This document shows, piece after piece, positions 1 to 33,593 of a stretch of DNA of 33,593 nt. This DNA is from a virus. Each line of letters starts with the position of its first letter. Positions within the stretch are counted from its first letter, which is position 1. The position numbers were made by a program, and so were the translations under genes. The stretch is from the IMG/VR virus record IMGVR_UViG_3300023174_000021, positions 1 through 33,593 of that record; one strand, 5' to 3'. The notes under the pieces were generated by a model. That model saw only the letters and a list, made by a program, of their open reading frames with translations. It made no database searches and was not told the origin of the DNA.

Positions 1-47
1 AAACCTCCTCTTATTTCTTTAGTAAAATTAAATATAGAGTCTTTCAT
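1..47 (-). CDS. Partial 5' copy of the 82-aa early gene (duplicate of 33506-33552)
   Basis: The first 47 bases hold only the start codon (complement of CAT at 45-47) and the first codons of the minus-strand gene that is complete at 33304-33552. This is a consequence of the 88-bp terminal repeat and not a second gene. In the circular map the gene begins at 47 and continues through the join. Confidence 0.85.
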   Translation of the reverse strand, partial: MKDSIFNFTKEIRGG

Positions 48-88
48 CTTAGTCTTAGCTCCTTGTCGAAGATCTTAGTCTTAGCTCT
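1..88. repeat. Terminal direct repeat, left copy
   Basis: These 88 bases are identical to the last 88 bases of the window (33506-33593). The sequence therefore closes into a circle of 33,505 bp, or the virion DNA has a short terminal redundancy. P22-like terminase and portal genes make headful packaging of a circularly permuted genome likely, in which case the repeat is simply assembly overlap. The repeat contains the start codon of the gene at 33304-33552 and two copies of the TCTTAGTCTTAG origin repeat. The contig break therefore falls inside a repetitive array, whose true copy number could be larger than shown. Confidence 0.95.
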
Positions 89-125
89 CTTAGTCTTAGA
101 TCTTAGTCTTAGATCTTAGTCTTAG
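47..125. repeat. TCTTAGTCTTAG iteron array (13-mer-like, candidate unwinding element)
   Basis: Exact copies of TCTTAGTCTTAG start at 47, 73, 88, 101 and 114. The last three are spaced exactly 13 bp apart, so the unit around 99-126 reads GATCTTAGTCTTA, with GATC at the junctions. The length, the GATC start and the position beside a DnaA-box cluster recall the 13-mer repeats of the E. coli oriC unwinding region. That resemblance is by eye, and no duplex stability was computed. An alternative is that the repeats are iterons bound by an unrecognised phage protein, such as the neighbouring 82-aa product. Confidence 0.75.
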
Positions 126-156
126 ATCTCTACGCGCACGCGTATATGAAGAAAAG

Positions 157-222
157 TTATCCACAGGGTTATCCACAGGGTTATCCACAGGTTTGGGGGT
201 AGTTATCCACAGGTTATCCACA
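157..222 (+). promoter_or_regulatory. Cluster of five consensus DnaA boxes
   Basis: TTATCCACA, the high-affinity DnaA box consensus, occurs exactly at 157-165, 169-177, 181-189, 203-211 and 214-222. All copies are in the same orientation and each is followed by G. The first three are spaced 12 bp start to start, the last pair 11 bp, with a 22-bp step between the groups, so most boxes fall on nearly the same helical face. I noticed no other copy of this 9-mer elsewhere in the window by eye. Confidence 0.9.
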
Positions 223-224
223 GG

Positions 225-392
225 TCAGCCTGGGGTGCTTTTGAGCGATTTTTCGTACTCTCTTTTGATTTCTTTTACGATCTCCTTTTCAGCTTTTGTA
301 TAATCTCTGACGGGTTTTCCATTCAAATCCATCAGTCTGTAGGGCATCCGTTCCAACCGTCTTTGGGCTTCTAAATTTGCCTTTTTACTCAT
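225..392 (-). CDS. Small charged protein, 55 aa, downstream of rusA
   Basis: The start ATG (392) overlaps the stop of the RusA gene as ATGA, so the two are translationally coupled. The product is highly charged and lysine/arginine/glutamate-rich, and its second half (KAEKEIVKEIKREYEK) looks alpha-helical. No known domain is recognised. It ends directly before the DnaA-box cluster, which puts it at the edge of the origin. Its role is unknown; a small DNA-associated accessory protein is possible but unsupported. The open frame, coupling and lack of a better frame on either strand support it as a real gene. Confidence 0.7.
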   Translation of the reverse strand: MSKKANLEAQRRLERMPYRLMDLNGKPVRDYTKAEKEIVKEIKREYEKSLKSTPG

Positions 393-811
393 TTAAGATT
401 CTCTGCCAGCCAGACCGTGACGCTGCCCTCTTGAGCATATTTCTTGTTGACTTTTAAGTGCGTGACCTGGGCATCGTCCTCGTAAACCACGCCGTTCATT
501 CCATCCAGCACGGTCTTGGCAATGTTGTCGACGTCTGGTCGTGATGGGTATACATCGCCGTCTAACGCTGTCTGGCGCTTTGCTTTTGACCAGCTCAGGG
601 GAATGCTCATCGTCGCTTCGATCATGACTCTCAACGGCGTCTTAAGTGGCTCTCTGCCGGCCATTGCTTCAGCAGCTCGAGCTGCGATTAGCGCTTCGTA
701 CTCTCGAGTAACAGCCGGTGTGTAGCTACGGGGCTTGCCGCCCTGCGTGCTGAACCGTGGTCTGCCCTTGCCGACTGGTGGCCCAGGGATAACAAACTGA
801 AGGGTAAACAT
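389..811 (-). CDS. rusA: RusA-family Holliday junction resolvase
   Basis: At 140 aa it is slightly longer than E. coli RusA (120 aa). RusA-type enzymes are dimeric, metal-dependent endonucleases that cut four-way junctions. The N-terminal IPGPPVGKGRPRF stretch (about residues 8-20) and the core RPDVDNIAKTVLDGMNG (91-107) match the family. The expected catalytic acids are at D93, D95, D103 and D112/D113, with K99. A GGAG ribosome-binding site lies just upstream of the ATG. In this phage it probably resolves recombination or replication branches so that concatemers can be packaged. It is transcribed divergently from the Exo/ERF operon across a shared control region. Confidence 0.93.
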   Translation of the reverse strand: MFTLQFVIPGPPVGKGRPRFSTQGGKPRSYTPAVTREYEALIAARAAEAMAGREPLKTPLRVMIEATMSIPLSWSKAKRQTALDGDVYPSRPDVDNIAKTVLDGMNGVVYEDDAQVTHLKVNKKYAQEGSVTVWLAENLK

Positions 812-987
812 CTGATCTCCGAGTGGGAACGGCAGATGATGCCCGAAGTCGATGTGCTTGTGGAGAAAATTTGTATTAGGGTTTGTCCCTAGAAAAAAAG
901 TTGCTTTACCCCCTTGTCAAGGTTGTCAACCATCTGTACAGTTCAACTCATGCGCTGCACGTCGTGGCGCACAACCGGAGGCCCAAA
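812..987. promoter_or_regulatory. Divergent control region between rusA and the recombination operon
   Basis: The stretch between the rusA start (811) and the plus-strand gene at 988 holds no convincing gene. It contains four short palindromes: TAGGG-TTTGT-CCCTA (877-891), CCTTG-T-CAAGG (912-922), GGTTG-T-CAACC (921-931) and CTGTACAG (934-941). The last three run almost end to end across a predicted promoter. Minus-strand TTGACA hexamers at 924-929 and 915-920 come from the same palindromes and could serve rusA, although I see no good -10 at the right distance. The arrangement suggests an operator for a repressor or activator controlling both directions. Confidence 0.6.
914..942 (+). promoter_or_regulatory. 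Candidate sigma70-type promoter for the recombination operon
   Basis: A -35-like TTGTCA (914-919) is separated by exactly 17 bp from a -10-like TACAGT (937-942). The match is 5/6 and 4/6 to the E. coli consensus. It points at the plus-strand genes starting at 988. The palindromes at 912-922, 921-931 and 934-941 cover both hexamers, so a bound regulator would be expected to occlude RNA polymerase. It was found by inspection only. Confidence 0.5.
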
Positions 988-1167
988 ATGGCTGACTTTC
1001 AGATTCTCCCCTTCTCCTTCAACGACACCAACGTGGTGTTTGTCGCTAACACTCCTGCAGCAAAAGCGCGGATTTGGGGTGGTGTCTCGGTCAACATTCG
1101 TAAGTCTGCAGCGCCAGACTTCACGGAAGCCCTTGAAGCAGATGGTTTCATTGTTGAAACCAAGTAA
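988..1167 (+). CDS. Hypothetical protein, 59 aa
   Basis: ATG at 988 follows a clear GGAGG site (977-981) with 6-nt spacing, so this start is preferred over the in-frame TTG at 883 that would lie inside the promoter. The product begins MADFQILPFSF and is a compact mixed alpha/beta-looking protein with no recognised motif. It is the first gene of the plus-strand recombination operon and is followed by a very stable hairpin (1175-1190). Function unknown. Confidence 0.75.
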   Translation: MADFQILPFSFNDTNVVFVANTPAAKARIWGGVSVNIRKSAAPDFTEALEADGFIVETK

Positions 1168-1174
1168 ATCAATC

Positions 1175-1190
1175 GGGGGCTTCGGCCCCC
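1175..1190 (+). other. UUCG-tetraloop hairpin in the early mRNA
   Basis: GGGGGC-TTCG-GCCCCC forms a perfect 6-bp GC stem closed by a C(UUCG)G tetraloop, which is known to be exceptionally stable. It sits between two genes and ends 4 nt before the AAGGAG ribosome-binding site (1195-1200) of the next one. No T-run follows on either strand, so it is not a classical terminator. An mRNA-stability element, pausing site or partial attenuator is more likely. Confidence 0.7.
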
Positions 1191-1205
1191 AACCAAGGAG
1201 TCCAA

Positions 1206-1379
1206 ATGAAAATCATATTCACCAAAAAAGAAATTGAGGAAATCATCCTCGCTCACGTACACCGTGAGGTTTACGAAGAATTTTCCAGCGAAATGCGATT
1301 CGACCGCTACGACGATGAAAATTTTGTCACCATCAAATCAGTCGAACCAACCCCCGAGGAGCCAAGCAATGAGACCTGA
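1206..1379 (+). CDS. Hypothetical acidic protein, 57 aa
   Basis: ATG at 1206 follows AAGGAG (1195-1200) with 5-nt spacing. The product (start MKIIFTKKEIEEIIL) is strongly acidic toward its C-terminus (EPTPEEPSNET). Its first half is predicted by eye to be helical. Its 3' end overlaps the next start at 1369 in another frame. No family is recognised. Position between the operon promoter and the exonuclease suggests co-expression with the recombination functions. Confidence 0.75.
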   Translation: MKIIFTKKEIEEIILAHVHREVYEEFSSEMRFDRYDDENFVTIKSVEPTPEEPSNET

Positions 1380-1476
1380 AGACCACGATTCCAACTTAAC
1401 TATCGCGCTGGCATCTCTTGCCGTTGGCGCCATGTCCGCAATCTGCTTGTTTCTTGCACTTTCTGGAGGTCTGTAA
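1369..1476 (+). CDS. Very small single-pass membrane protein, 35 aa
   Basis: ATG at 1369 is preceded by GAGGAG and overlaps the end of the upstream gene. The stop overlaps the exonuclease start as TAATG, so translation is probably coupled. After a short polar N-terminus (MRPEDHDSN) almost the whole remainder (residues 10-35) is hydrophobic, compatible with one transmembrane helix. No family is recognised. Because it is tiny and its sequence also contains the ribosome-binding site (GGAGGT) for the next gene, it could be partly a leader for coupling. Confidence 0.6.
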   Translation: MRPEDHDSNLTIALASLAVGAMSAICLFLALSGGL

Positions 1477-2432
1477 TGGTCGGCAAAGTAACCCCCAACA
1501 CGATGCTGTCAGCATCCCGCGTCCCTGCCCTTCTGGGCCACTCAAAGTACGAGACGCCTAATAAGGTACTGGAGAGCGTTTTGAACGCGCTACAGGACGT
1601 AGAAACGCCGTTTGAAGCCAACGAAGCAATGCACTGGGGCAATATGCTGGAGATCCCGATCCTGCTTGAAGCGTCGGGACGTTTGGGATTGTCCAACGTA
1701 GTGCTTGACCATCCGAAAGCGTACTTTCACCCGGACGCGCCAATTGCTTGTTCCCTTGACGGGAACGGTGACGGTAATGGCCTGGTTGTCAAAGACAATC
1801 CCGATGCCGGCGTATACGTTGTCGGCGCCGAATCAATCACGCTTGACGGTGTTGGCGTGCTCGAAGCCAAGCTGACCTCAAACTATCCCGAAGACTATCC
1901 AGCGCTGAGCCGGGGACCGCTCCAGCTCCAAGCGCAGATGGACATTACCGGCGCCAAATGGGGAGCTGTTTGCGTGCTTTATCAAGGCATCGAGCTGCGG
2001 ATCTTTTTGTTTGCGCCCCATGAGGAAACGCAAGCGCTGATCCGCAAGAAAGCGTTTGAACTGGAATCAAAAATCACGCATTGGTCCGAAACCGGCGAGG
2101 TTGAATGGTACGACCCGGCCACTCCCGAGGAGTACGGCCAGAAATGGCCTGGCGATCCAAACCTTGACTCTGTTGATCTGGGCGATTGGGGAGCAACGCT
2201 GGCCGAGCGGATTGTCAAAGCCAAGCAGGAAATCAAAACGCTTGAAACCACAATCGCCGACAGCGAGAAAGAACTTAAGGAAATGCTTGGCAACGCAACC
2301 AAAGCGCACGCCGAGGAGTTTTTAATTTCCTGGCCGATCCGTAACTACCAAGCGCAACCTGCAAAGACTGTACCCGCTAAACCAGCGTATTCCATCCGTC
2401 AAGATTCTGTGACCGTAAAGGTGAAGAAATGA
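1476..2432 (+). CDS. YqaJ/lambda-exonuclease-like recombination nuclease
   Basis: This 318-aa protein belongs to the PD-(D/E)xK exonuclease group that resects double-stranded DNA 5' to 3' to give single strands for annealing. Visible features are HWGNMLE (E59, motif I-like), CSLDG (D95), VLEAKL (E130, K132: the ExK pair) and PLQLQAQM (148-155, the QxxxY/Q motif of the family). The C-terminal third is predominantly helical (about 235-275, coiled-coil-like). A GGAGGT site precedes the ATG. Its stop overlaps the ERF start by four bases, the standard exonuclease plus annealase pairing of Red-like systems. Confidence 0.88.
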   Translation: MVGKVTPNTMLSASRVPALLGHSKYETPNKVLESVLNALQDVETPFEANEAMHWGNMLEIPILLEASGRLGLSNVVLDHPKAYFHPDAPIACSLDGNGDGNGLVVKDNPDAGVYVVGAESITLDGVGVLEAKLTSNYPEDYPALSRGPLQLQAQMDITGAKWGAVCVLYQGIELRIFLFAPHEETQALIRKKAFELESKITHWSETGEVEWYDPATPEEYGQKWPGDPNLDSVDLGDWGATLAERIVKAKQEIKTLETTIADSEKELKEMLGNATKAHAEEFLISWPIRNYQAQPAKTVPAKPAYSIRQDSVTVKVKK

Positions 2433-3217
2433 ACGTCTACAAAAAACTGACCCAAGCCAGGTTAAAGCTGCTGTCGGCAGAAATGAAAAAGTCTGGCCAC
2501 AACAAGTTTGCTGGCTATCACTATTTTGAGCTGGGAGACTTTATCCCTGCGATCCACAAGATATTCGACGAGCTTGGATTGTGCGGTGTTTTTACCTTTG
2601 AGCATTCAAACGCAACGCTGACGATCCACGACACCGATGGTAGTGGCTCGATTGTGTTCTCAAGCCCTGTCGTCTCTGCGACCAAAGTCGAAAAAGACGG
2701 GACGCAAAAACCAGAGTCGATTCAAGACATGGGTGGGAAGCACACGTACTTCAGGCGCTACCTTTGGCTAATGGCTCTTGAGATCACCGAGCATGACTCA
2801 ATTGACGCCGGTGACAACGCAGATCGCAGACAAGACAAGCCAGAAGGCAAGCCTGCAAACCCTCTGGATTCGGTAGCACCCAAAGCGCTGCCAAAGCCCT
2901 CTGAGCCGCCGCCAGACGTGATTGAGTTTGAGGATGGCGCTGGTGGCACTTGGGCGTTGCGCGTCCCTAACGAAGCCAAGCCACGCTCAATGTCTGCTGA
3001 TGAAGCCGCATGGGTTGTGGAGTTCAATGCGCTGGCTGACGCCGTGATGAAAGCCGGCAAAGTGCCGCCGGCAGATCGCATCTCCAAGCTGAAGTTGCTG
3101 CGTACATCAAATGACGCTGAGATTGCCCGACTGTCGATAGTAGAGCGTGCGAGGTTTCTTCAGACATTCTCGGCACGAATCGGCGCACTTGATGCGCTGA
3201 TGAAAGCAGCCGCATGA
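2429..3217 (+). CDS. erf: ERF-family single-strand annealing protein
   Basis: The 262-aa product resembles ERF proteins (P22 Erf family), which bind single-stranded DNA and anneal complementary strands. The N-terminal domain (1-128) has the characteristic GHNKFAGYHYFELGDFIP segment (23-40) and the GGKHTYFRRYLWLMALEI segment (102-119). A proline-rich linker (about 140-165, with PKPSEPPPD) leads to a second helical domain. It overlaps the exonuclease by ATGA and the next gene by ATGA. It probably works with the exonuclease in genome circularisation, concatemer formation and recombination with resident prophages. Confidence 0.9.
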   Translation: MNVYKKLTQARLKLLSAEMKKSGHNKFAGYHYFELGDFIPAIHKIFDELGLCGVFTFEHSNATLTIHDTDGSGSIVFSSPVVSATKVEKDGTQKPESIQDMGGKHTYFRRYLWLMALEITEHDSIDAGDNADRRQDKPEGKPANPLDSVAPKALPKPSEPPPDVIEFEDGAGGTWALRVPNEAKPRSMSADEAAWVVEFNALADAVMKAGKVPPADRISKLKLLRTSNDAEIARLSIVERARFLQTFSARIGALDALMKAAA

Positions 3218-3432
3218 GTATGGCTCAGATCCGATTATTGGACGCAATCGGTGGTCTGGAGAAGTCACTAGGCCGGTTGCCGTCCATGAATGAAATAGCA
3301 CGGGTTCTGGGCTGTAGCCCCCAGAACGTACACAAGATGATCAAACGAATGAGGAGCAAGAATGAAACAATGTCCACCCTGCCACGGCAATTGCAATCAG
3401 GGACGAAACTGTCCAAGGAGAAACAGCAATGA
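3214..3432 (+). CDS. Small helix-turn-helix protein, 72 aa
   Basis: Residues about 20-45 (GRLPSMNEIARVLGCSPQNV) form a clear helix-turn-helix resembling winged-helix or sigma-region DNA-binding segments of the LexA N-terminal type. The C-terminal tail is basic and polar. Its start overlaps the ERF stop (ATGA) and its stop overlaps the next start, so it is co-translated with the recombination genes. It is a reasonable candidate for the regulator that binds the palindromes at 877-941, since it would be expressed from that promoter, but this is inference. Confidence 0.7.
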   Translation: MSMAQIRLLDAIGGLEKSLGRLPSMNEIARVLGCSPQNVHKMIKRMRSKNETMSTLPRQLQSGTKLSKEKQQ

Positions 3433-3617
3433 AAGTCTGGGTTGATCCACCAGAAGGATGGCGCTACGGGTTTCCCAAGGTCTGGGATACCGAGCTGCAC
3501 GACAATATGCTGCACTGGTTAGATGACCGCGGTTACCCGCCGGAGCTGCGAGACCAATACGGGGAATATTTCTTTGTCCGGCAATGGTCCGTCAAAGACG
3601 ATTCGTTTGGAATTTAG
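3429..3617 (+). CDS. Hypothetical protein, 62 aa
   Basis: Last gene of the plus-strand operon, coupled to the HTH gene by an ATGA overlap. The product is rich in aromatic residues (several W and Y, motif WVDPPEGWRYGFPKVW near the N-terminus) and acidic. Short proteins of this kind are common in phage early regions, but I cannot assign a role. Its TAG stop (3615-3617) overlaps the TAA stop of the convergent metallophosphoesterase gene. Confidence 0.75.
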   Translation: MKVWVDPPEGWRYGFPKVWDTELHDNMLHWLDDRGYPPELRDQYGEYFFVRQWSVKDDSFGI

Positions 3618-4600
3618 AGCGCAGACACGTCGATAATCTGGCCGCGGAAGTCCAGCATTCCCTCGGCGTGTTTGATCGCTAATTCAGGAAACAAGAGCCG
3701 GGAATCTCGGAATGTGAGCACGGAAAAACCGGAACGCCAGTTAACCGGATTGTCCTCAAGGTAGTCGTTGAACTGCTTGCCATCAATGTCTGCCAACGTC
3801 CCAGTGTCAACGCCATAACGGTTTCCACGGTAATCACTGTACGGCGTGCATTTCAACGAATGCAGGTGGCCAGTAACGATGCTGATGCCGCTGCCCATCG
3901 TGTTTGTGTGCGTAGCGTGAATGCCGTTTTTGTAACGGTGCTTGACCACCACTTCATCTGTCAGCCAACAGCTCCAGCACGGATGCCACGCTGGGAAATG
4001 GTCTTTCAATGAGAAGCCGGCAACACCCTCATAGCCTGGTGTGTTCGCTGCTAAAAAATTCTCAAATCGAGAGTCATGGTTGCCTAGTGGCCAAATAAGC
4101 TGGACGTTGTGGCGTGCTGCTTTGGCAACCGCCTCAATCTCTGCCAGAGCCACTTGGCAAGCATTTAGCTCCTCCTTGACGCTTGGCTGTTGCGTCCAGC
4201 CAATGCGCGGAAACCGGCTGATTGAGGCCCCGTCAAAGGCATCGCCGTTGTTGATCACAGCGTAGGGCTTGAGTTGGCTGATTGCCCACAGCAATCCTTT
4301 AAACGCGGTGGTACGCAGTCCTGGCCAGAAGTGTGCATCGCTGAATACGATCACCACTCCATCGGTGATGCCGGCCTGGTGCCGAGCTTTTGTCAGATGA
4401 TGCGTTTGAAGATGCTCAAACGCTTTAGCGCTTGGTGCTGTTGCTTCAAGTTGAATCTTGAGCTTGGCTTCTAATCGCCGTCGATTTTGATGCGCCCATC
4501 TTTCGGTGAAGCCAAAAAACTGAGCGACTTTAGATGCGCTCTTTAATCGGGTCCAGGCTCCGAGAAAATCTTCATCGGTAACCTTTTGCTTTCCCTTCAT
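3614..4600 (-). CDS. Calcineurin-like metallophosphoesterase
   Basis: The 328-aa product has the ordered metal-binding motifs of the superfamily: SDAHFW (D88, H90), NGDAFDG (118-124), GNHD (173-176), HATH (228-231) and GHLH (244-247). These coordinate two metal ions for phosphoester hydrolysis. About 60 N-terminal residues form an extra helical, HTH-like segment (SASKVAQFFGFTERWAHQNR), suggesting DNA contact. It is the last gene of the late minus-strand block, after the lysis genes. Substrate cannot be deduced; a nuclease or a nucleotide phosphatase are both possible. A perfect inverted repeat lies immediately upstream of its start. Confidence 0.85.
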   Translation of the reverse strand: MKGKQKVTDEDFLGAWTRLKSASKVAQFFGFTERWAHQNRRRLEAKLKIQLEATAPSAKAFEHLQTHHLTKARHQAGITDGVVIVFSDAHFWPGLRTTAFKGLLWAISQLKPYAVINNGDAFDGASISRFPRIGWTQQPSVKEELNACQVALAEIEAVAKAARHNVQLIWPLGNHDSRFENFLAANTPGYEGVAGFSLKDHFPAWHPCWSCWLTDEVVVKHRYKNGIHATHTNTMGSGISIVTGHLHSLKCTPYSDYRGNRYGVDTGTLADIDGKQFNDYLEDNPVNWRSGFSVLTFRDSRLLFPELAIKHAEGMLDFRGQIIDVSAL

Positions 4601-4602
4601 TT

Positions 4603-4632
4603 TTTAGCACCATTTGTTGCGTTGGTGCTAAA
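4603..4632. repeat. Perfect inverted repeat upstream of the metallophosphoesterase gene
   Basis: TTTAGCACCA (4603-4612) and TGGTGCTAAA (4623-4632) are perfect 10-bp arms separated by a 10-nt loop. The near arm ends two bases from the minus-strand start codon. In the mRNA it would hide the translation start region, which has no strong ribosome-binding site. As DNA it could be an operator. Neither strand has a T-run after the stem, so a terminator is unlikely. The rest of the 73-nt gap to 4673 shows nothing else convincing. Confidence 0.75.
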
Positions 4633-4673
4633 TACCACGCCAAGATTACGCTGTCTAGTGCCAAACGCTTGTT

Positions 4674-5183
4674 TTATATATTTTTTTTCGCGTAGTCTTC
4701 GACAGCGTTAACTCGACGGGTCCAACCCTTGCCGAAGACCGGATAAGCCTTCAATTTTTCAAGAAATCTCAGTCTGAGATCGCAGTAATCTTCAATCAAA
4801 TCTGATGGTTTCTCGCGCTTGACCGCGGCCATCGTAACGGGTCCGATGACACCATCATCATCAACGCCCAGGATGCGCTGCAAGAATACAATCGCTTGCT
4901 TGGGTCCGCTGTTTACTGCTGCATCAAAGACGCAGTAATCCAGACCCGCCGGCAGATCATCGCCCCAGACCTTATTCCAAAAGCGCCCACGATAGAGCGG
5001 CACCACGTCAGAGACGGATAGATCGCGCATACATTGCTCGTCGACACTTTCCCCTGTCCAATCTTCCCAGGTGCGTTTAGTGACGCCGTGGTTTGTCATT
5101 CCACCGGGATCGCTTGGATGGTTGCAGTAGCCACCTTCAAACCCAAGCGTCAGACGCAGCGCGTCTTCGAAGTTGTCTTTCAT
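4674..5183 (-). CDS. Endolysin: GH108 lysozyme-like with peptidoglycan-binding domain
   Basis: This 169-aa protein has the N-terminal hallmark GFEGGYCNHPSDPGG (14-28), with catalytic-type Glu16, and the NHGVT segment of glycoside hydrolase family 108. The second half (about 70-165) matches the associated small peptidoglycan-binding domain (FDAAVNSGPKQA; GVIGPVT). It should cleave the glycan backbone of the cell wall to release progeny. There is no obvious signal peptide, so release to the periplasm probably depends on the holin. Its start overlaps the holin stop as ATGA. The length is typical for the family. Confidence 0.93.
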   Translation of the reverse strand: MKDNFEDALRLTLGFEGGYCNHPSDPGGMTNHGVTKRTWEDWTGESVDEQCMRDLSVSDVVPLYRGRFWNKVWGDDLPAGLDYCVFDAAVNSGPKQAIVFLQRILGVDDDGVIGPVTMAAVKREKPSDLIEDYCDLRLRFLEKLKAYPVFGKGWTRRVNAVEDYAKKNI

Positions 5184-5581
5184 TTAGATGCAACGCCCTG
5201 AACTTTCTCAAAGGTCCGCAGACCGCCAAGCCCAAGCATACCGAACATCAGCTCCCACAAGCTCGCGTCTAACGTCGGCATATCGCCAACTTCAATGCCG
5301 TTCAGTCTTGCAACGTAAGAGCCAATCGGTCGCAGAACGTACTGATACGCAAGCGCCGTGGCGCAGACCCATCCAATCGCCGGACGCCAGCCGGCAACAA
5401 ACAAGCTGCCCGATGCCGCTTCGGTCTTGTTGATCTCGAGCTGGCCGACGATCTTGGCAAGCTCGCCTGATTGCTGAAGCTTTAGCAGCTCAAGCTGAGC
5501 GCTGGCCTGTTGTGCTGGATCTGGCCAGACCCGCTTGATGATTTCACCACCAAGCCCGAGGATCGCATCGATGCCGATCAT
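5180..5581 (-). CDS. Holin, three-TM (GTA_holin_3TM-like) family
   Basis: I choose the ATG at 5581 (MIGIDAILGLGGEIIK), which overlaps the upstream stop as ATGA; the open frame extends further upstream without a better start. The 133-aa protein has an N-terminal amphipathic or hydrophobic stretch, a central GWRPAIGWVCATALAYQYVLRP membrane segment and a C-terminal LMFGMLGLGGLRTFEK hydrophobic segment. The GWRP-type motif is typical of the 3-TM holin family also found beside gene transfer agent lysis genes. It would form the membrane lesion that frees the endolysin. Adjacent gene order supports the call. Confidence 0.85.
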   Translation of the reverse strand: MIGIDAILGLGGEIIKRVWPDPAQQASAQLELLKLQQSGELAKIVGQLEINKTEAASGSLFVAGWRPAIGWVCATALAYQYVLRPIGSYVARLNGIEVGDMPTLDASLWELMFGMLGLGGLRTFEKVQGVASK

Positions 5582-5781
5582 TTGGACCAATGACTGACGA
5601 TCCAGCCGAGCGCTGTACTGGCTCCGCTGATGATTGCCATGCCGAACCAAAACCCGCCCTTGCTTTGATTAGCCAGCTCCAATAATTTCTTGATGTCGGC
5701 TTGCATATCTGCCACTTGCCTTTCCAGCAGATCGACCTTGGCGATTAGCTGACCATATTTGACGGGATCAATATCTGACAT
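5578..5781 (-). CDS. Small membrane protein of the lysis cassette (coiled coil plus one TM), 67 aa
   Basis: ATG at 5781 (MSDIDPVKYG) is preferred to the in-frame TTG two codons upstream. Residues about 10-40 form a heptad-like coiled coil (LIAKVDLLERQVADMQADIKK), followed by a single hydrophobic helix (WFGMAIISGASTALGWIV) near the C-terminus. The layout resembles XhlA-type proteins or small phage antiholins. It overlaps the holin start by four bases. It could be a holin partner, a membrane anchor or a spanin-like component, but the orientation and small size do not match a classical Rz. Confidence 0.7.
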   Translation of the reverse strand: MSDIDPVKYGQLIAKVDLLERQVADMQADIKKLLELANQSKGGFWFGMAIISGASTALGWIVSHWSK

Positions 5782-5788
5782 GATCAAC

Positions 5789-8284
5789 TCACGGTTTGTA
5801 ATTCAAAAACTCTTGCAGTTTGGTTTGGTCACGCGATATTTTACGTTTTTCCATGCCGGCTTTCAGAAGTCTTTGACCAACATACATTGGCACGCCAAGA
5901 CCTGGTTGTTCTGCAAGAGTCTGACCAAGAACCTCGCCACCAACTCCCGCCAGCGCCCCCAGAATTGTCTCACCGCTTCCCGAAGTGCTCAACACTTCCC
6001 GAGGTTTGGTCTGAATCTCTTTGACCACTTCGTTGAGCGTGCGGTAATGGTTAGCCCATTCAGGACCAAACACCAGCTCCAACTTTCCGCTCTTGTCTAA
6101 ATTGGTGACCAGCTTATTCATTTCTGGCGTGGACACGTAGGGTCTGCCCTTGGTGTCAAGCTGCACGTTCTTGGTTGTGTTTTCCAAGATATGCTCGCCA
6201 AATCGACCCTTAATGTCTTTCACCAACTGCTGACCTTCTGGTCCAGAATTGTCTAGCAGATCAAAAACCCTGCGGACCTGATCGCCAGACTTTCCAAGAA
6301 AAATCTGATCAAAGATTTTTTCTGTAGGAACAGCTTGGTCGGTTGTGCCTTTCTTAACTTCGTTGATTGACCTGACCGTGCTTTGATTCTCAAAGTCGTT
6401 AGACCATTGTGCTCGCTGACGTCTGGCTTGTTTGTAAATGTCGCCGCCAGCGTTCTCAGTAATGCCATCAATCAAACGCTTAACTTTGGTTGACAAAGCC
6501 TTTTGACGTTTGTCCGTCCAATCGGTTTGATCATTGATCAGTTGCCGCACGTCCTCAAGCTGCCGCACGCCAATCGTGCGCGATCCACTTGGATCGTTGA
6601 CCGCAAACTCTTCCTCCAAGATTTTATAGAGCGGGTTCAACGACGCGACTGTTGGACGTCCACCAGTTTCTTTAGCAATAAGATCAAGCACCGGCTGATA
6701 GGAAACTGGTTGTGCCAGCTCACCCGCCGCTTCTGCCGCTGCGTACTGATTGCGAATGTCGGCCATGCGAGCATCTTTGATGCCCTGCACGTAGGTCTTG
6801 ACGCGCTGACCAAAATCGGTCGGTGAAACGCCCTGAGATTGCGTGCCAGTCGCCTCGATTCCAGCTTGCATATTCTGCTGAACCTTGGCGTTTTGATCGG
6901 CATAGTGCTCAAACACTTGCTCAGCCAAGTGAGGAGTCTTGGCAGCAACACCCGCAAACTTAACGTCGGTCGGGTTGCGCGTCGCTTGAGCACGATCAAT
7001 TGTGATCGGCACCGGCAGGTTTGCCGCTTTCTCTGCTCGAGCCCGAGGAGTATCGACCGCTGCTGCACCAACGCTGCCTGGCGTTGCTGTTGCGCCTGCC
7101 GGTTGTGCTTGAGCTGCTGCCACCGCCCGCGCTTGGACTTCTCTTAGACTTGGAGCGTTAGCAAGATCGGTAAATGCCTGTTCCTTGGCTGCTTTTTGCT
7201 CTGCAATTTGAGCTTGAAGCTCGGCCATAGTCACCCGTGGCTTTGGCTGGCCTGGTGCCGGTGCTGCTGCAACAGGAGCGCCAATGCCGGGCTCAACCCG
7301 GGGAGCTGCTGGCTTGGCCGCAAATTGATCGCGCAACGCTTGCTCGACTGTTAATGCGCTTCTTGCACTGGCCGATTTAACTCCTTGAGAGATTTGTCCA
7401 GCTTTCCCGATTGCAGGAGCAAACGCAGGAAGTCCGGACGTCAAAGTGCCAAATGACTCAAGGTTAGCGCGTGCCCCAGGACTCATTGGGACGTCGCTTC
7501 CCAATTCCATAATTTGTCGAGCTGTTTCTTCTTTAGGAGTCCCAGTTAATATTTCTTTCCCTACGGCAATCGGAGCACCAATTAGCGCTGTTCCTGCACC
7601 ATAAATCATTCTTGCCGCCGTTTCTGGAGCAGCAATCACTCTTTCAAAAAAAGATGGATCTTGAGCAATTGGCGGCTGCTTTACTGATTCAGGAATTTGA
7701 TCAGGAGAAGCAACAGGAAGCGCTGCCGCTGGCGTCGGGGCAGCGGGAGCCGGTGATGGTGTCGGTTTTGGTGCCAACCGTTCGCGCATGATTTTGCGCA
7801 CCAGATCGCCCTCGGGCACGCCCGAAGAGCTAAACGATGACGGCCTCGGTGTCGCCTTGACTGGCTCTTCGGCTTTCTCTGTGCCGAGAATCAGTGCGCT
7901 GATCTCATCAGTTGGCGCCTTCGCTTGCCGAGCTAACGCAGCATTGAATTTGTTGATGTAATTGGTCGGGTCTTTGGTGATATAACCGCCATACGCAGCT
8001 AGACCCTTGTTAAGATCGCCTCCGTTCTTGTCAACAAAGTCTTGCAAGTGTTGCCGAGCAACCTCTCGAGATTGTGGTTCGTTGAATGGGTCAAACTTGA
8101 TGCCTTTGGCAGCGTAAGATGCAACGGTGCTAGGCATAAACTGATACGCGCCCATCGCGCCAGTGTCTTTGTTTACCGCCTTCGGGTTGTTGCTGCTCTC
8201 AATTTCGCGCAACGCATCCATGTGAGCGCCGGTTACAACGGTCTTGGATGGCTTCCCAAGAATCAGTTCTGAGACTTCATCCAT
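5789..8284 (-). CDS. Ejection protein with N-terminal lytic transglycosylase domain (P22 gp16 position)
   Basis: The 831-aa protein starts with an SLT-type domain. The motif REIESSNNP includes catalytic Glu29, followed by GAMGAYQFMPST (43-53) and a YGGYITKDPTNYINKF segment. The remainder is alanine/proline/glutamine-rich and long-helical (about 350-800), as is usual for virion ejection proteins that enter the host envelope. Gene order (tail accessory proteins, then three ejection proteins, this one last) equals P22 genes 7-20-16. It probably digests peptidoglycan locally during DNA entry. It overlaps the preceding gene as TAATG. An internal Pro-rich stretch at about 165-190 separates the domains. 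Confidence 0.82.
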   Translation of the reverse strand: MDEVSELILGKPSKTVVTGAHMDALREIESSNNPKAVNKDTGAMGAYQFMPSTVASYAAKGIKFDPFNEPQSREVARQHLQDFVDKNGGDLNKGLAAYGGYITKDPTNYINKFNAALARQAKAPTDEISALILGTEKAEEPVKATPRPSSFSSSGVPEGDLVRKIMRERLAPKPTPSPAPAAPTPAAALPVASPDQIPESVKQPPIAQDPSFFERVIAAPETAARMIYGAGTALIGAPIAVGKEILTGTPKEETARQIMELGSDVPMSPGARANLESFGTLTSGLPAFAPAIGKAGQISQGVKSASARSALTVEQALRDQFAAKPAAPRVEPGIGAPVAAAPAPGQPKPRVTMAELQAQIAEQKAAKEQAFTDLANAPSLREVQARAVAAAQAQPAGATATPGSVGAAAVDTPRARAEKAANLPVPITIDRAQATRNPTDVKFAGVAAKTPHLAEQVFEHYADQNAKVQQNMQAGIEATGTQSQGVSPTDFGQRVKTYVQGIKDARMADIRNQYAAAEAAGELAQPVSYQPVLDLIAKETGGRPTVASLNPLYKILEEEFAVNDPSGSRTIGVRQLEDVRQLINDQTDWTDKRQKALSTKVKRLIDGITENAGGDIYKQARRQRAQWSNDFENQSTVRSINEVKKGTTDQAVPTEKIFDQIFLGKSGDQVRRVFDLLDNSGPEGQQLVKDIKGRFGEHILENTTKNVQLDTKGRPYVSTPEMNKLVTNLDKSGKLELVFGPEWANHYRTLNEVVKEIQTKPREVLSTSGSGETILGALAGVGGEVLGQTLAEQPGLGVPMYVGQRLLKAGMEKRKISRDQTKLQEFLNYKP

Positions 8285-9810
8285 TACAGCGATCCAGTTT
8301 GCTCAAGACGCAGGATGTTTTGATATTTGCGGTTGAATTCCTCGCGCTCTTTCGGCGTGGCATTTTTTAAGATCTCGTTTGCCACCTTGATTCGCTCAGC
8401 CTTGTCGGGAATCAGTTTGGGCAAAGCCATAATCTCAAAAATGCGAGAGTCAGCATTCTTGGACCACGTTTGCTTGAATGCGTTGTGGTTAGCATCGCCA
8501 AAGTTCTGTGCAAAGTTTGCTGCCGCTCGGCCCTCAAGCTCGGTAGCCAGCACGTCAGCGTAGGAGCGTCTGGCAATAGACTTGAGCACATTCGGAGGAT
8601 AAGTCTCGTCACCGTTGGCGTGCCTGGCAAGAGCCTGGCCAGAAACGGTATCTAGCGAGCCACCCTTGGATTGGATCATCCCAATCTGGACGTTCGCCAG
8701 ATCTTTTGACAGTTGCTTGTAATCCTCGCTGCCAAAGAATCCGCGCACGTTACGTTCCATTGAACCGGCAGCGCCGGCTTGGAAATACGATTGCTGTTGG
8801 ATCTTGTTGGCTTTGTCAATGACCTCCTCAATGCTGCGCCGAGCTGAAGTCATTGCCGGTTGCATTGATACCAGATCACCAACGTATTTTTGACCAGCAG
8901 CTCGGTCTGCTTCTTCGCCTTGAACCGGCAAGAATGGTTGCCCTGGTTGTCGCACGGGATAACGCAGCGACATTTGAGTAGCAGTAACGCCTTGTGGCTG
9001 CGCCGGTGCTGCTGGTTGCATCGGAGTAGAAATCGCAGCCAGCCCCGGTGTAACAGGAGGAGTCAAAGCAGACTCACCGACTTGCGTTCTTTGTATGATG
9101 GTTTTTGGCGTTTGAATTGCGCCAGTTGTAACGCCTTCAGACAACGGAGCGCCTTCAGCGGGAGTTGTTGGACGCGGACCAACTTGAAATGGCTGGAACC
9201 GATTCCCGCCAGGTTCTGCAACGGGATAACCCGGAACGCCACCAGCGCTAACAGATGGAACGCCGGTTGGTGCAAATGCTTGTCGCTGCTCTGCGGCAGT
9301 CCCTCTCGAAAACAAATTGCGAAACGCCCATTCGTTAACTGGTGTCTGGTCTTTTTTGTTCAGCGATTCTTCAATTCTTGAATACAGAGAAGCCGCAAAC
9401 AATTCTGCCGAATCTTCTGGTACACCAGCAGCAATTGCTTGCCGTTTAGCTGCCATCACGTCTTTGAACGCCGCTCGAGGATCGTTTGTGACGTTTTGAA
9501 AAGATTGCAATTGAAAAAGTGGCGCAAAAGCCTGTTGCAATCGCTCTTGTGTGTTGCCGGCTTGATTAAATTTGGCAACCTCGGCCCCGGTAACCGTTTG
9601 ACTACTCAACCCTTTCTGCCGAGCAATTTCAGCGTCTTTTGTTGCCTGCGCAATACCCAACTCAATCCGAGCTTTTTCCTGCTGGATTGGGTTCATCGCC
9701 TGTTCTTGCTCAAGCGCTTGCACGCCCCGAGCCAGGTTTAAATAATTTCCAGCAGGACCTAGAAAGTCAATTGGCTTGACGCCCATCGCAATATTTGGAT
9801 CGACCGGCAT
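8284..9810 (-). CDS. Ejection (internal virion) protein, P22 gp20 position
   Basis: The 508-aa product is Gln/Ala-rich. Its N-terminal helical part (about 25-180, with LARGVQALEQEQAMNPIQQEKARIE shortened to its Q/E-rich character) leads to a Pro-rich central linker (about 185-300) and a helical C-terminal half. No enzymatic motif is visible. Its place between the gp7-like and transglycosylase-containing ejection proteins, with short or overlapping junctions on both sides, supports a role as the middle ejection protein packaged inside the capsid. Assignment rests on gene order and composition, since these proteins diverge too fast for motif recognition. Confidence 0.65.
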   Translation of the reverse strand: MPVDPNIAMGVKPIDFLGPAGNYLNLARGVQALEQEQAMNPIQQEKARIELGIAQATKDAEIARQKGLSSQTVTGAEVAKFNQAGNTQERLQQAFAPLFQLQSFQNVTNDPRAAFKDVMAAKRQAIAAGVPEDSAELFAASLYSRIEESLNKKDQTPVNEWAFRNLFSRGTAAEQRQAFAPTGVPSVSAGGVPGYPVAEPGGNRFQPFQVGPRPTTPAEGAPLSEGVTTGAIQTPKTIIQRTQVGESALTPPVTPGLAAISTPMQPAAPAQPQGVTATQMSLRYPVRQPGQPFLPVQGEEADRAAGQKYVGDLVSMQPAMTSARRSIEEVIDKANKIQQQSYFQAGAAGSMERNVRGFFGSEDYKQLSKDLANVQIGMIQSKGGSLDTVSGQALARHANGDETYPPNVLKSIARRSYADVLATELEGRAAANFAQNFGDANHNAFKQTWSKNADSRIFEIMALPKLIPDKAERIKVANEILKNATPKEREEFNRKYQNILRLEQTGSL

Positions 9811-9813
9811 GAT

Positions 9814-10623
9814 TTACGCTGCCCTGTAGTTGAAATCGCCAAACATTGTTGTTTTTGTTGCCCCGGCTCCAGGAATCGCATCCGAAGCAGTTCGATTTTC
9901 AATCGTTGCCGGTTGCCGCAACCCGCTGATAAAGTCACGCGCTGCGTAATTGCCAGCCGCATTAGTGAACATATTTGCCGCTCCTACAATCCCACCGGCT
10001 TGAGCGTTACCGATGCCTGTTAATAAGTTAGACGCATTGGTGCCGTAGTTAGACGCCGCAGTGTTGGTCGCGGTTTGCCCTGTTTGACCAATTCCAGCAA
10101 TTCCGGCCAACGTGTTGTAAATGTCTTTGCGCTGATTCAAAAAATTACTAAGCGCTGTTTGGTAATTTGTGCTTGCGTAATCTTCGGCAAACCGAGTGAT
10201 TCCACGGTCAATGTCGCTGCCACCGCTGCCGCCGGCATTTAAGCGTTGCCGTGCCGCCCTTTGTCCTTCTTTGAGCATAAACTCATAGCTAGGAGACAGA
10301 TTTGTTTTTAAATCTTCGGGTCCAAACTGTTTGGTCAAATACCCGGTGCCAGTCTGCATCTTCGGCATACCGGCTTCATCCAGTATCGGCTTGCCTTGCG
10401 CATCAAACATTGGCGTCTGACCGCCAAGCATCCCGCCGATCTGACTCAGCGACGTGTAACCAATTCCGCGATACGGAGCTTGTTGCTGATTGATTAGGTT
10501 AAATTGTTCACGCTGTAGCTCTAACGCTCGGTTAGATGCGTCAACCTGTCTGTTCGACGCGCTTCTCGACGCATCCGCTCCAATTATTGCACCGCCAATG
10601 GTGGCTAAAGCAGCGAGTGGCAT
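9814..10623 (-). CDS. Ejection (internal virion) protein, P22 gp7 position
   Basis: The 269-aa product begins with a small-residue hydrophobic segment (LAALATIGGAIIGADASRSA). A Gln-rich helix (NRALELQREQFNLINQQQAP) and an Ala/Gly/Asn-rich C-terminal half follow, with repeated small-residue stretches such as GIAGIGQTGQTATN. This layout (membrane-active N-terminus and a flexible, helical body) is common to the first ejection protein of podoviruses. It follows the cupin gene and precedes the other two ejection genes. The function is inferred from composition and gene order. Confidence 0.65.
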   Translation of the reverse strand: MPLAALATIGGAIIGADASRSASNRQVDASNRALELQREQFNLINQQQAPYRGIGYTSLSQIGGMLGGQTPMFDAQGKPILDEAGMPKMQTGTGYLTKQFGPEDLKTNLSPSYEFMLKEGQRAARQRLNAGGSGGSDIDRGITRFAEDYASTNYQTALSNFLNQRKDIYNTLAGIAGIGQTGQTATNTAASNYGTNASNLLTGIGNAQAGGIVGAANMFTNAAGNYAARDFISGLRQPATIENRTASDAIPGAGATKTTMFGDFNYRAA

Positions 10624-10625
10624 GA

Positions 10626-10979
10626 TTAAATTCCTTTGCTGATTAACACAGCATCAATTTCGTTCTCGTCTGTTTCGTCTGTTGCATGGATGCAAAACCA
10701 TACGCAATCCTGCAACGCTTCAATTTTGTGGTGCGTGCCGGCTTTGATCTCAATGCACGCTGGAGCGTTGTAACTTTCGACAGAATCATCAGTCGAAACA
10801 ATGACTTGACCCGATGCCAGTATACTCAAATGGGAATAAACGTGCTTGTGGGTCGCAGCAACGTATCCCTTCGGAATAAACATCTGTTTTGCATAGATGC
10901 CGCCTGAGAAATGATGCTCCACTTGTGGATCGGCATCAAATCGGCCAGCAATCCCTTTCACAAAATCATCAACTTTCAT
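10626..10979 (-). CDS. Small cupin-fold protein
   Basis: The 117-aa product carries a single cupin-like barrel. The first motif contains GYVAATHKHVYSHLSILASG (38-57), with candidate metal ligands H44, H46 and H50, and the second contains AGTHHKIEAL (80-89), with H83/H84. Cupins range from enzymes to sugar-binding and structural proteins. This one lies between the needle-position fibre and the ejection proteins, and its ATG overlaps the preceding stop as TAATG. A virion assembly role or a metal-dependent accessory enzyme are both possible. No catalytic specificity can be read from the sequence. Confidence 0.75.
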   Translation of the reverse strand: MKVDDFVKGIAGRFDADPQVEHHFSGGIYAKQMFIPKGYVAATHKHVYSHLSILASGQVIVSTDDSVESYNAPACIEIKAGTHHKIEALQDCVWFCIHATDETDENEIDAVLISKGI

Positions 10980-11506
10980 TAAGTATACAGCGGCAAATAA
11001 TACGTTGTACCGTCAGCCACAACCGGAAGCCATTTTGCAATGACTGTGTGAGTCCCGGTTGCTGCCAAATTGTTAACCGTCACGGTGCTGGACGTCGTGA
11101 GCGTGGTTGCACTAACTGACGTGCCAGCAATTGATCCACCCGTGATTGCAACGCCGCTGGCATTCTGTATGGCCAGTGTGCCAGCACCAGAGACGTCGGC
11201 AATTGGCACCGTCGCGCTTGCCGTGAGCGGTGTTGTGCCGGCGCCTTTCACATAGCCGGTCAGCGTATTAGCGCCCGTGCCACCAGACGCCACATTCAGC
11301 TTGCCGCCCAATGTAACCGCGCCAGACGTTGCCGCTGCCGGAGTCAGCCCCGTGGTGCCGCCATTGACAGAGTTAACCAGACCAACGCCGACCGTGATCG
11401 TTGAGACGTTAGGGTTTTGCAACCAGATCAACCATTCTCGAGCCGGTCTTTTGGTGACTGGATCTAGGAATGGCGATTGTGGATAGCGTAGATATGACGT
11501 TGCCAT
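10979..11506 (-). CDS. Small fibre-like protein at the tail-needle position
   Basis: The 175-aa product has a short N-terminal anchor-like segment (YLRYPQSPFLDPVTKRPAREW) followed by Gly/Thr/Ser-rich repeats typical of trimeric phage fibres (ASGGTGANTLTGYVKGAGT). It ends in a short beta-rich tip. It directly follows the gp10-like gene, the place where P22 encodes its needle gp26, so it may plug the tail. It lacks the long coiled coil of P22 gp26, so a short side-fibre is the alternative. Its start touches the gp10-like stop and its stop overlaps the cupin start. Confidence 0.6.
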   Translation of the reverse strand: MATSYLRYPQSPFLDPVTKRPAREWLIWLQNPNVSTITVGVGLVNSVNGGTTGLTPAAATSGAVTLGGKLNVASGGTGANTLTGYVKGAGTTPLTASATVPIADVSGAGTLAIQNASGVAITGGSIAGTSVSATTLTTSSTVTVNNLAATGTHTVIAKWLPVVADGTTYYLPLYT

Positions 11507-12981
11507 CAGTTCTCACCAACGCTGGCTTTGAGATTGGCAGAGACGATTGCCGCCTTGACGGGATCGCTAATCGACACTTCCCAAACACGATCTCTGGCCA
11601 TGCCAAGCCGACGCCAGATTGCTCGATTTTGATACTTGCCAATCTTGCCGATGGTTGTCCAATGCTCGTTTGAGTAGGTAGAGCCACCGTCGTTTGACCA
11701 GCGCAGCATTGCCTGTGGGTCTTGCCCTTGTCCGGTGCTTAGACCAACGCCAGGCTGGAATTGGATTTGCAGCTCCTCAAAATACTGTCTCTGAAAGTCA
11801 GAAACAATATGAGGAGTCCGGCGCAATCGTCTGATCGGATTGCCGCCCTCGGTGTAAACTTCGGTATCTACAATGTAGATTTTGCCGTTCTGGTAATCGC
11901 CAACCAGATTGTAGGTATTGAAAAAGGTGGCACAGTTTCCGCGATTGCGCTGGAAGTTATTCAACGGGTCCAGGCTCATCCACTTGAACCAGAGCTTAGT
12001 CGTGGAATCGTAGACCCAGGTTAGATTGGCCTGGGGGAAAGTGACAATGTACCACTCGTGTCCCGTGATCTGCATTGAGTAGGCAATCGCGTCAGAAACG
12101 TCAAAGCCAATCAGCGAATTCTCGACGGCGTGCGTACTCAGCCGGACAAACTGGTAACCATTGACCGTGCCTATCGTCGCGTGCCCAAGTAGATCCCGCG
12201 TGACAAACATGAACGTCTCAGCCCATCGAGCTACGCTAAACGGTGCGTTGATGCCGTGCTGAATGAACGTACCGCTGATTGGCGTAAACGGGAAAGTGGC
12301 AATTGTCGGATCTGGTGGCGGTGACTCAACCCAGACCTCGGTCGTATACTCGCCAAACAGGAATAACTGCTGGTGATCGAAGAACAACGAGACAAGATTG
12401 TCCGACCCGCCATCCTTGCGCCCGTATAGCGTGCTAGTCGTATAAGCCGAGCCAGGATCGGTTACCGTGAATAACTGACTGTTGGGCTTGTTGTAAGCAA
12501 CGTAGCCGTTGGCGTAGTCACAAACCGTTGCATCAGCCCATGGACCATCGCTAGACAGTTGGGTAAACGTGCTGGTTGTCAGATTGTAGATATACCGCGC
12601 AGACCCATCAGCGATGTAAGCCACAACGCCGTTGGCAGCGCCGTCGTCGGTCGTTTGAGTCTCGGTGATGCTGACGGGTCCAGACAAAGTTATAAGCGTG
12701 CCTACCTCGGTATATGACCAGTCTGCAAGAATGACGTATAGCTTGTTTGCTGCAACCGCAACCATTTGGTTGAACGGGTTGATCGCTCGCATTCCGCGCA
12801 CGGGACCGTTTGGCAGCGTGACAATGGTGCGATAACCCGGAGTCGGCAACAGCGCTATAACGCCTCGAGCGCCTTCTGGTTTTACTGGGTCGATTTCTGG
12901 ATACCAATTGATGCACTCTTGCGCATCCTGATAGATGGTCGGAGCTTCGTAAGACGCCCCAACAAACCCAAAGTCAGCCAT
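11506..12981 (-). CDS. P22 gp10-like packaged-DNA stabilisation (tail hub) protein
   Basis: The 491-aa size is close to P22 gp10 (472 aa). The N-terminus (FVGASYEAPTIYQDAQECIN, then WYPEIDP) and the regularly spaced beta-rich segments with VFLQ/WVES-type strands fit the family, which binds below gp4 and forms the tail hub onto which the needle and spikes attach. The C-terminal region has LRWSNDGGSTYSNEHW and a RRLGMARDRVWEVSISDPV ending that are typical of this group. It follows the gp4-like gene with a TAATG overlap, as in P22. Confidence 0.85.
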   Translation of the reverse strand: MADFGFVGASYEAPTIYQDAQECINWYPEIDPVKPEGARGVIALLPTPGYRTIVTLPNGPVRGMRAINPFNQMVAVAANKLYVILADWSYTEVGTLITLSGPVSITETQTTDDGAANGVVAYIADGSARYIYNLTTSTFTQLSSDGPWADATVCDYANGYVAYNKPNSQLFTVTDPGSAYTTSTLYGRKDGGSDNLVSLFFDHQQLFLFGEYTTEVWVESPPPDPTIATFPFTPISGTFIQHGINAPFSVARWAETFMFVTRDLLGHATIGTVNGYQFVRLSTHAVENSLIGFDVSDAIAYSMQITGHEWYIVTFPQANLTWVYDSTTKLWFKWMSLDPLNNFQRNRGNCATFFNTYNLVGDYQNGKIYIVDTEVYTEGGNPIRRLRRTPHIVSDFQRQYFEELQIQFQPGVGLSTGQGQDPQAMLRWSNDGGSTYSNEHWTTIGKIGKYQNRAIWRRLGMARDRVWEVSISDPVKAAIVSANLKASVGEN

Positions 12982-30306: not shown

Positions 30307-30561
30307 TTATTCCACGACCGCACAAACGTCGGCCTCTTGGATGATTTGATAGTCCTGACCGTCCTTGTTGTGGGTCGGCCAATTAAGGTAGTCACCGTTG
30401 CCGTACTTGATCCAGTCACCAACCTTTGCCTCTTTCACTTGCGGTCCGATTGCAACGATCCGACCTTCGTTAAATGGCTCTTTGTTGGTGACGTGGATCA
30501 CGTCCGACAGTTTGCGAACTGCCGGTTGCACGGTGATGTAATTACGCAGTGGTCGAATCAT
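30307..30561 (-). CDS. GroES-like co-chaperonin (Cpn10 family)
   Basis: The 84-aa product follows the GroES pattern end to end: an opening IRPLRNYITVQ (compare GroES IRPLHDRVIVK), a loop region (RKLSDVIHVTNKEPF) at the mobile-loop position, GRIVAIGP, KVGDWIKYGNGDY and the closing DYQIIQEADVCAVVE. GroES caps the host GroEL; phage versions (for example T4 gp31) help fold the coat protein. The loop has VIHV where GroES has the GroEL-contacting IVL. It is somewhat shorter than GroES (97 aa). The start overlaps the preceding stop as ATGA. It is upstream of packaging and head genes, which fits a role in head assembly. Confidence 0.85.
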   Translation of the reverse strand: MIRPLRNYITVQPAVRKLSDVIHVTNKEPFNEGRIVAIGPQVKEAKVGDWIKYGNGDYLNWPTHNKDGQDYQIIQEADVCAVVE

Positions 30562-31483: not shown

Positions 31484-31887
31484 GAAAGGGTATCCGGTGA
31501 GTATTCGCCGCACCAATGGTTATCGTCCACTGGTGGCCAGGCTGGAGTTTCGTTGCCGCTCTCGTCTACCAACAGCTCTGGTGATCTGCGTCGACATTCG
31601 CCCATATACGATGTTTCCCCATCTCCTCCAAGAAGCTCGAAATATCGACAGGATCCGCAAGTAGGTCGCATAACCACTCCTCCATAAATAGGTCGGATGT
31701 TTGTTCGTCTATTATCGGTTTCATGCTTTTCTTCCCATTCATTTATTAACGCTATTGCATCGCCATGTATTTGCTTTGCAAGAGTTAATACAGTTTCCAA
31801 TTCAACATTAAATCCAGCGCATTGTTTTTGTAGCTCGCTAACATTTAGCTGAATGCTGGTAATTGATTCTCCGACTTGTAGGGTCAT
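31480..31887 (-). CDS. Small putative zinc-binding protein, 135 aa
   Basis: The N-terminal half (10-55) is helical and coiled-coil-like (SIQLNVSELQKQCAGFNVEL). The C-terminal half has PTCGSCRYFE (C77, C80), GECRRRSP (C98) and PPVDDNHWCGEY (H124, C126), a spacing common in small phage proteins that probably bind one zinc ion or an iron-sulphur centre. It overlaps both neighbours by four bases (ATGA). No enzymatic role is recognised. It may be a regulator or nucleic-acid-binding protein of the early block. Confidence 0.72.
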   Translation of the reverse strand: MTLQVGESITSIQLNVSELQKQCAGFNVELETVLTLAKQIHGDAIALINEWEEKHETDNRRTNIRPIYGGVVMRPTCGSCRYFELLGGDGETSYMGECRRRSPELLVDESGNETPAWPPVDDNHWCGEYSPDTLS

Positions 31888-32177
31888 GCAATAAGAGCCT
31901 CCTTCAGTTGCGATTCTTTCATCGTAAAAATATCTTTGGAACCAAAGATCTTCTCAATCCAAGGTCGAACCCAAAGATAACTCGTGCCGGCTTGCGCGTT
32001 TCGCTCAATCAGATTCTTGGTCGTGAGCATCTTGTTGCCAAATGATACCCACACGTGCGGCAGAACGTAATGCGGCACGAACATCGCGCCGGATAGAAAA
32101 AACACCGGCTGGACGTCGGGAAAGCTGATTTCAGCATCGTCAGCTTTGTAAACAAACTTCCCATTAGTGAATTCCAA
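31884..32177 (-). CDS. Hypothetical early protein, 97 aa, probable TTG start
   Basis: The frame has no suitably placed ATG near the preceding gene's end. A TTG at 32177, eight bases after AGGAG, gives a start that overlaps the upstream gene by 14 nt and is the best choice. The longer version from an upstream ATG would overlap the previous gene by nearly 200 nt. The product contains FTNGKFVYKADDAEISFPDV, FFLSGAMFVPHYVLPHVWVS and a basic or aromatic C-terminal half (YLWVRPWIEKIFGS). No family is recognised. It ends with ATGA coupling to the next gene. Confidence 0.65.
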   Translation of the reverse strand: MEFTNGKFVYKADDAEISFPDVQPVFFLSGAMFVPHYVLPHVWVSFGNKMLTTKNLIERNAQAGTSYLWVRPWIEKIFGSKDIFTMKESQLKEALIA

Positions 32178-32914: not shown

Positions 32915-32932
32915 CCATTTTAATTAAAATGG
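32915..32932. repeat. Perfect 18-bp palindrome at the end of the SSB-like gene
   Basis: CCATTTTAATTAAAATGG is a perfect palindrome of 18 bp that overlaps the stop codon of the SSB-like gene and the intergenic gap before the HNH gene. It is AT-rich in its centre and has no loop, so it suits a dimeric DNA-binding protein better than an mRNA hairpin. It may be an operator or a nuclease site for the adjacent HNH protein. Chance constraint from coding sequence (Ile-Pro-Phe-stop) cannot explain the outer arm. Confidence 0.7.
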
Positions 32933-33552: not shown

Positions 33553-33593
33553 CTTAGTCTTAGCTCCTTGTCGAAGATCTTAGTCTTAGCTCT
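33506..33593. repeat. Terminal direct repeat, right copy
   Basis: Identical to bases 1-88; see the left copy. Removing one copy gives the 33,505-bp circular map. The repeat holds the 5' end of the 82-aa early gene and two copies of the TCTTAGTCTTAG unit. Confidence 0.95.

Follow-up and report, generated by a model that had tools for sequence, protein, structure and literature searches.

The genome of a lake-water bacterial virus carries a compact array of DnaA boxes that most likely serves as a replication origin dependent on the host's DnaA. We analyzed the virus record IMGVR_UViG_3300023174_000021 over its full 33,593 nucleotides (the window). Because the two ends of the window share 88 identical bases, the genome could be closed into a circle of 33,505 bp, which justifies statements about the whole genome. 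The proposed origin would span 33479–222 across the circle join, with host DnaA acting as the sequence-specific initiator. The argument draws on the array in combination with a missing initiator gene, an exchange of modules among relatives, and an adjacent maximum of DNA instability, not on the array alone. Chromosomes and plasmids are established settings for DnaA-dependent origins; in this tailed phage, such an origin appears to stand in for the initiator gene. In the open literature, which defined the scope of our search, we found no phage described as relying on DnaA boxes alone.

The virus was assigned to the P22-like podoviruses on the basis of its virion module (terminase, P22-like portal, coat, scaffold, and the head-closure protein gp10, all found by profile searches) and of the ejection, endolysin, and holin genes also present in the window. 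Among the approximately 40 proteins scanned against PHROGs, Pfam, and NCBIfam, there was no integrase, repressor, or partition gene. The description of the phage as lytic in an earlier note on this DNA went too far, as the support for it is that no integrase or repressor was found. No direct DNA relatives of window positions 1–12000 were present among 50,697 phage records, and the window holds no tRNA genes. GC skew showed no turning point, a reading confounded by the location of nearly all genes on one strand. A GroES-like co-chaperonin is encoded at 30307–30561, and relatives have one too.

Five exact DnaA boxes (TTATCCACA) lie on the plus strand at 157–165, 169–177, 181–189, 203–211, and 214–222 (boxes 1 to 5). 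Their starts are 12, 12, 22, and 11 bp apart, close to one or two helical turns, so the five exact, same-orientation boxes with near-helical spacing described in the earlier note were borne out. Neither strand of the entire circle holds a further exact copy. Under a first-order Markov model, 0.17 exact boxes would be expected per genome against the five observed, which rules out chance or low complexity as their source; the probability of five boxes within 70 bp is, as a rough estimate, about 3e-18. An assembly artifact was also ruled out, given the recurrence of the array in 36 contigs and the clean 88-bp end overlap. A G-rich spacer (192–202) separates box 3 from box 4; its sequence varies among relatives, while its length stays within 1 bp in most of them.

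On the left, a linker (CTACGCGCACGCGTATATGAAGAAAAG, 130–156) joins the boxes to a block of 13-bp direct repeats. Tandem Repeats Finder delimited this block as 6.9 copies of the unit AGTCTTAGATCTT at 38–129, and we regard these as candidate unwinding repeats. The GATC-starting 13-bp repeats noticed earlier are therefore present, with clean units at 99–127, but had been given too short an extent. Four AGATCT/GATC sites occur within the repeats, at 70, 98, 111, and 124. ATP-DnaA recognizes AGATCT in single-stranded form in the E. coli oriC unwinding region, and the site has so far been reported only for E. coli (PMC4285127). The motif is not enriched beside other viral arrays, so we give it modest weight.

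A nearest-neighbor stability scan placed the least stable 80-, 150-, and 250-bp segments of the genome directly left of the array. This candidate unwinding element runs from 33479 to 33593 and on through the 88-bp overlap (equal to 1–88) to about 125. Instability ranked first at all three lengths beside the array in G000, G001, G004, G007, and G002, so that the thermodynamically unstable element adjoining the boxes of a DnaA-dependent origin was found in five genomes. DNA to the right of the boxes, the other possible unwinding side, is only moderately unstable (top 0.2–1.7%) and falls clearly behind the left. Capture of a chromosomal unwinding element was rejected, as none of 84,980 species genomes gave an exact match to the 30-base repeat core. 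A search for an RNA-regulated origin gave no Rfam match.

The earlier note had proposed comparing the region in related genomes. A search with the neighboring gene orf82 recovered the array in 36 related contigs (window included), many of which are close relatives and do not amount to 36 independent tests. Relatives whose portal proteins are 94–98% identical have the same array. Across the 36 contigs, mean conservation was 0.984 for the boxes, 0.971 for the AT-rich stretch, and 0.964 for the linker (mean over alignment columns), compared with 0.927 for adjacent coding DNA, 0.900 for the G-rich spacer, and 0.821 for the right-hand gene. Judged by this pattern, the array element is under selection; the clade thus has the cluster of consensus DnaA boxes under selection that is looked for in a DnaA-dependent origin.

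The substitutions that do occur point the same way. The 180 box positions comprise 155 exact boxes, 24 variants, and 1 missing box. Box 1 is identical in 34 of the 36 contigs (the other 2 have TTATTCACA), box 3 in 32, box 4 in 34, and box 5 in 35, and the variants of box 2 are mostly TTGTCCACA. In all 24 variants (TTGTCCACA, TTATTCACA, and one TTGTTCACA), the changes are confined to position 3 (A to G) or position 5 (C to T), leaving the contact core untouched. The E. coli box consensus TTWTNCACA puts no constraint on position 5 (PMC5835720), and in Mycobacterium and Streptomyces, TTGTCCACA serves as the high-affinity box (PMC4285127). Both single variants are, by comparison with these published sites, known and tolerated by DnaA, and the substitution pattern is as would be expected if DnaA itself reads the boxes.

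Scans of the approximately 40 proteins (PHROGs, Pfam, and NCBIfam) turned up no polymerase, primase, helicase, phage initiator, or DnaA, and DNA_pol_A, DnaB_C, Bac_DnaA_C, and two phage initiator families, each searched against the whole record, had no match in the window. Both results confirm the earlier statement that no polymerase, primase, helicase, or initiator gene can be recognized. The stronger wording, that the phage is without its own initiator, holds insofar as none is recognizable, but one of two conserved small proteins (82 and 72 aa) could be an unrecognized helper or initiator.

The strongest support for a DnaA-dependent origin comes from a module swap among relatives. Phage replication initiators are encoded by seven relatives that share the capsid and tail genes (coat 74–87% and portal 61–66% identical where aligned) but lack the array, whereas six array-bearing genomes or contigs encode none. 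The initiators of the seven belong to the phrog_270/9327 families; they are of the phrog_270 type in G014, G016, G017, G022, and MW202674 and primosomal/O-like in G019 and MW202520. Neither family was detected in the array-bearing G000, G001, G002, G004, G007, and G010, with G002 and G010 being partial contigs. Array-less genomes, in turn, contained no clusters of three or more boxes when degenerate boxes were allowed (for G022, the search was limited to exact box pairs). PBR31, which is more distant, carries a loader-like gene and an initiator from a different family; in the relative G012, which may be a fragment, neither array nor initiator was detected. The swap was probably one evolutionary event, and we therefore attach no statistical weight to the number of genomes on each side. 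The simplest reading of this pattern is that the DNA element takes over the role of the absent initiator gene.

Several recombination genes lie around the array. To its right are orf55 (225–392, minus strand), a small and poorly conserved gene; a RusA-like Holliday junction resolvase (389–811, minus); a YqaJ/RecE-like recombination exonuclease (1476–2432, plus); and an Erf-like ssDNA annealing protein (2429–3217, plus), the last three identified by profile matches. Next comes HTH72, a strongly conserved 72-aa protein (3214–3432, plus). The first gene to the left, orf82 (33304–33552, minus; 82 aa, 83–100% identical in relatives), is followed by an SSB-like protein (32924–33307, minus; PHROG 18154, E 1.4e-4). 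Farther left, two conserved ORFs (31884–32357 and 32164–32454) overlap in different frames, one of them winged-helix-like (a weak Lrs14-like resemblance). With recombination genes present and conserved and no initiator found, Erf and YqaJ could prime replication through recombination or R-loops on host machinery, without a dedicated origin and with the array incidental. We consider this very improbable, because the array is more conserved than adjacent coding DNA and because the array-less relatives, which have Erf and SSB too, carry initiator genes in addition.

Box arrays are not confined to this clade. At least 120 viral stretches (L005–L124) contain three tandem exact DnaA boxes, and those examined form 68 DNA-similarity groups. 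Among 23 other large array contigs, DnaB was found in 9 and PolA in 4; a phage-encoded DnaA was found neither in these 23 nor in the window. T7-like phages can be expected to bring a replisome of their own. Even so, the T7-like P483 (L305:1443–1545) and VB_Ship_A7 (L306:22–135) have four to six exact boxes near their genome termini, as does Klebsiella phage ZK1 near a terminus (L308:19–198). A second viral group (L387–L392; G033, G034, and G043) has boxes spaced 11 and 23 bp; searches for PolA, DnaB, and DnaA families gave no match in the three, and those for the two initiator families gave none in G033 and G034. Because arrays occur in phages with their own helicase or polymerase, an array alone is no proof of a DnaA origin, and box arrays by themselves do not define such origins.

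The same arrays lend something to the view that the boxes have a role other than as an origin: they might titrate host DnaA, shift its nucleotide state in the manner of datA or DARS, or regulate the leftward orf82–SSB operon, which starts at 33552 and has the array upstream of it. The datA and DARS loci are indeed box clusters with such roles (PMC5835720). This explanation would leave the adjacent instability maximum and the repeats unaccounted for, along with the absence of initiator genes exactly where the array is present, and it would deprive the phage of any recognizable start of replication. We regard it as improbable.

The main rival, although an unlikely one, is a cryptic phage initiator or helper. 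The element would then be a plasmid-like origin in which such a protein uses the 13-bp repeats as iterons, with DnaA in an auxiliary role, as in P1, F, RK2, and pSC101. The repeats are direct and conserved, and the "reversed" polarity of the boxes fits a helper role for DnaA. Three proteins are candidates: HTH72, orf82, and the product of the 96-aa winged-helix ORF at 32164–32454. HTH72 and orf82 are conserved throughout the clade, nearly invariant, and without an assigned family, and HTH72 has a predicted DNA-binding fold. However, comparisons with PHROGs, Pfam, and NCBIfam linked none of the candidates to an initiator. The predicted fold of HTH72 is a winged helix resembling LexA and sigma domains, making it a possible regulator. 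For orf82, with four predicted helices, a fold search gave no confident match, the third-ranked weak hit being a DnaD-domain protein (E 1.9). Moreover, at 5700–5790 of G007 (L213), the repeat core GATCTAAGACTAA is the exact reverse complement of the window's TTAGTCTTAGATC, as if the repeat block had been inverted. Such an inversion is unusual for directional iterons; AGATCT, being palindromic, is left intact by the flip.

If the array is a host-DnaA-dependent origin, as we favor, the sequence suggests the following course of events. Host DnaA would bind the five tandem boxes and then oligomerize, the adjacent least stable region with its 13-bp AGATCT repeats would open, and host DnaB helicase and the rest of the host replisome would then load. 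Later rounds of replication and the formation of concatemers would proceed through the phage's recombination set (exonuclease, Erf, SSB, and RusA). Each of these steps, from DnaA binding to the recombination phase, is inferred from sequence, as is the dependence on DnaA. Recruitment of host DnaA and the host replisome, as first proposed, is thus partly supported, being favored by conservation, box-specific substitutions, unstable DNA, and initiator replacement. In a broader proposal, which we put forward tentatively and with some doubt, this lineage exchanged its initiator gene for a purely DNA-based element read by DnaA, with no initiation protein, and the similar arrays in about 68 groups reflect a widespread and largely undescribed strategy. 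If the array is a host-DnaA-dependent origin, a tailed phage starts replication with the host's cell-cycle initiator, phage synthesis is tied to DnaA level and nucleotide state, and a cis element alone can replace a viral initiator gene.

We compared the element with bacterial origins. A similar three-box array was found in 77 contigs of bacterial genomes; among the loci compared, which were no longer than about 8 kb each, 30 showed a dnaA signature. DnaA-trios (CTACTACTA) lay 3′ of the boxes in 20 of 20 trio-bearing bacterial loci and 5′ in none; in the window's clade, they occur on neither side of the array, which therefore lacks the 3′ trios of a BUS-type oriC. The phage boxes point away from the unstable region, which is 5′ of them, the reverse of trio-type origins. 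In E. coli, the polarity of the R1 box relative to the unstable side is also opposite to the phage's, so that of the E. coli-type features, the GATC-starting 13-mers and AGATCT are present and the box polarity is not. In B. subtilis, reversing the proximal boxes abolishes unwinding and activity (PMC6669920). Other geometries do exist, since the origins of plasmids P1 and F can be opened by DnaA on its own (PMC5043065). The label "bacterial oriC-like" in the earlier note is thus apt for the parts list and inapt for the polarity and the lack of trios.

Set against chromosomal oriC (E. coli with its 13-mers and B. subtilis with its trios), the phage element shares tandem consensus boxes, an adjacent unstable region, and, in its 13-bp repeats, GATC/AGATCT. 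It differs in boxes that face away, in having no DnaA-trio and no dnaA gene, and in its location in a phage. If it is indeed an origin, it could serve as a minimal, box-reversed one for asking what DnaA needs to open DNA. With iteron plasmid origins (P1 oriR, F oriS, RK2 oriV, and pSC101), it shares AT-rich DNA and DnaA boxes beside short repeats. Those origins have a Rep gene next to the repeats, whereas none was recognized in the phage, where the two small conserved proteins remain candidates. Tandem exact DnaA boxes also occur on two endosymbiont plasmids, L242 (Pantoea edessiphila pSOE2) and L309 (Palibaumannia cicadellinicola), the second of which encodes Rep.

Among phages, the lambda-type O/P or DnaC-like modules of the closest array-less relatives occupy the same position in the life cycle and likewise hand over to the host replisome. 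They encode an initiator or loader, whereas the array clade has none that is recognizable and carries a box array instead. Near the lambda origin, DnaA plays an auxiliary part (PMC3985674). Tailed phages without almost all replication genes (PMC11348598) similarly rely on the host replication machinery; here, a cis element for DnaA is visible.
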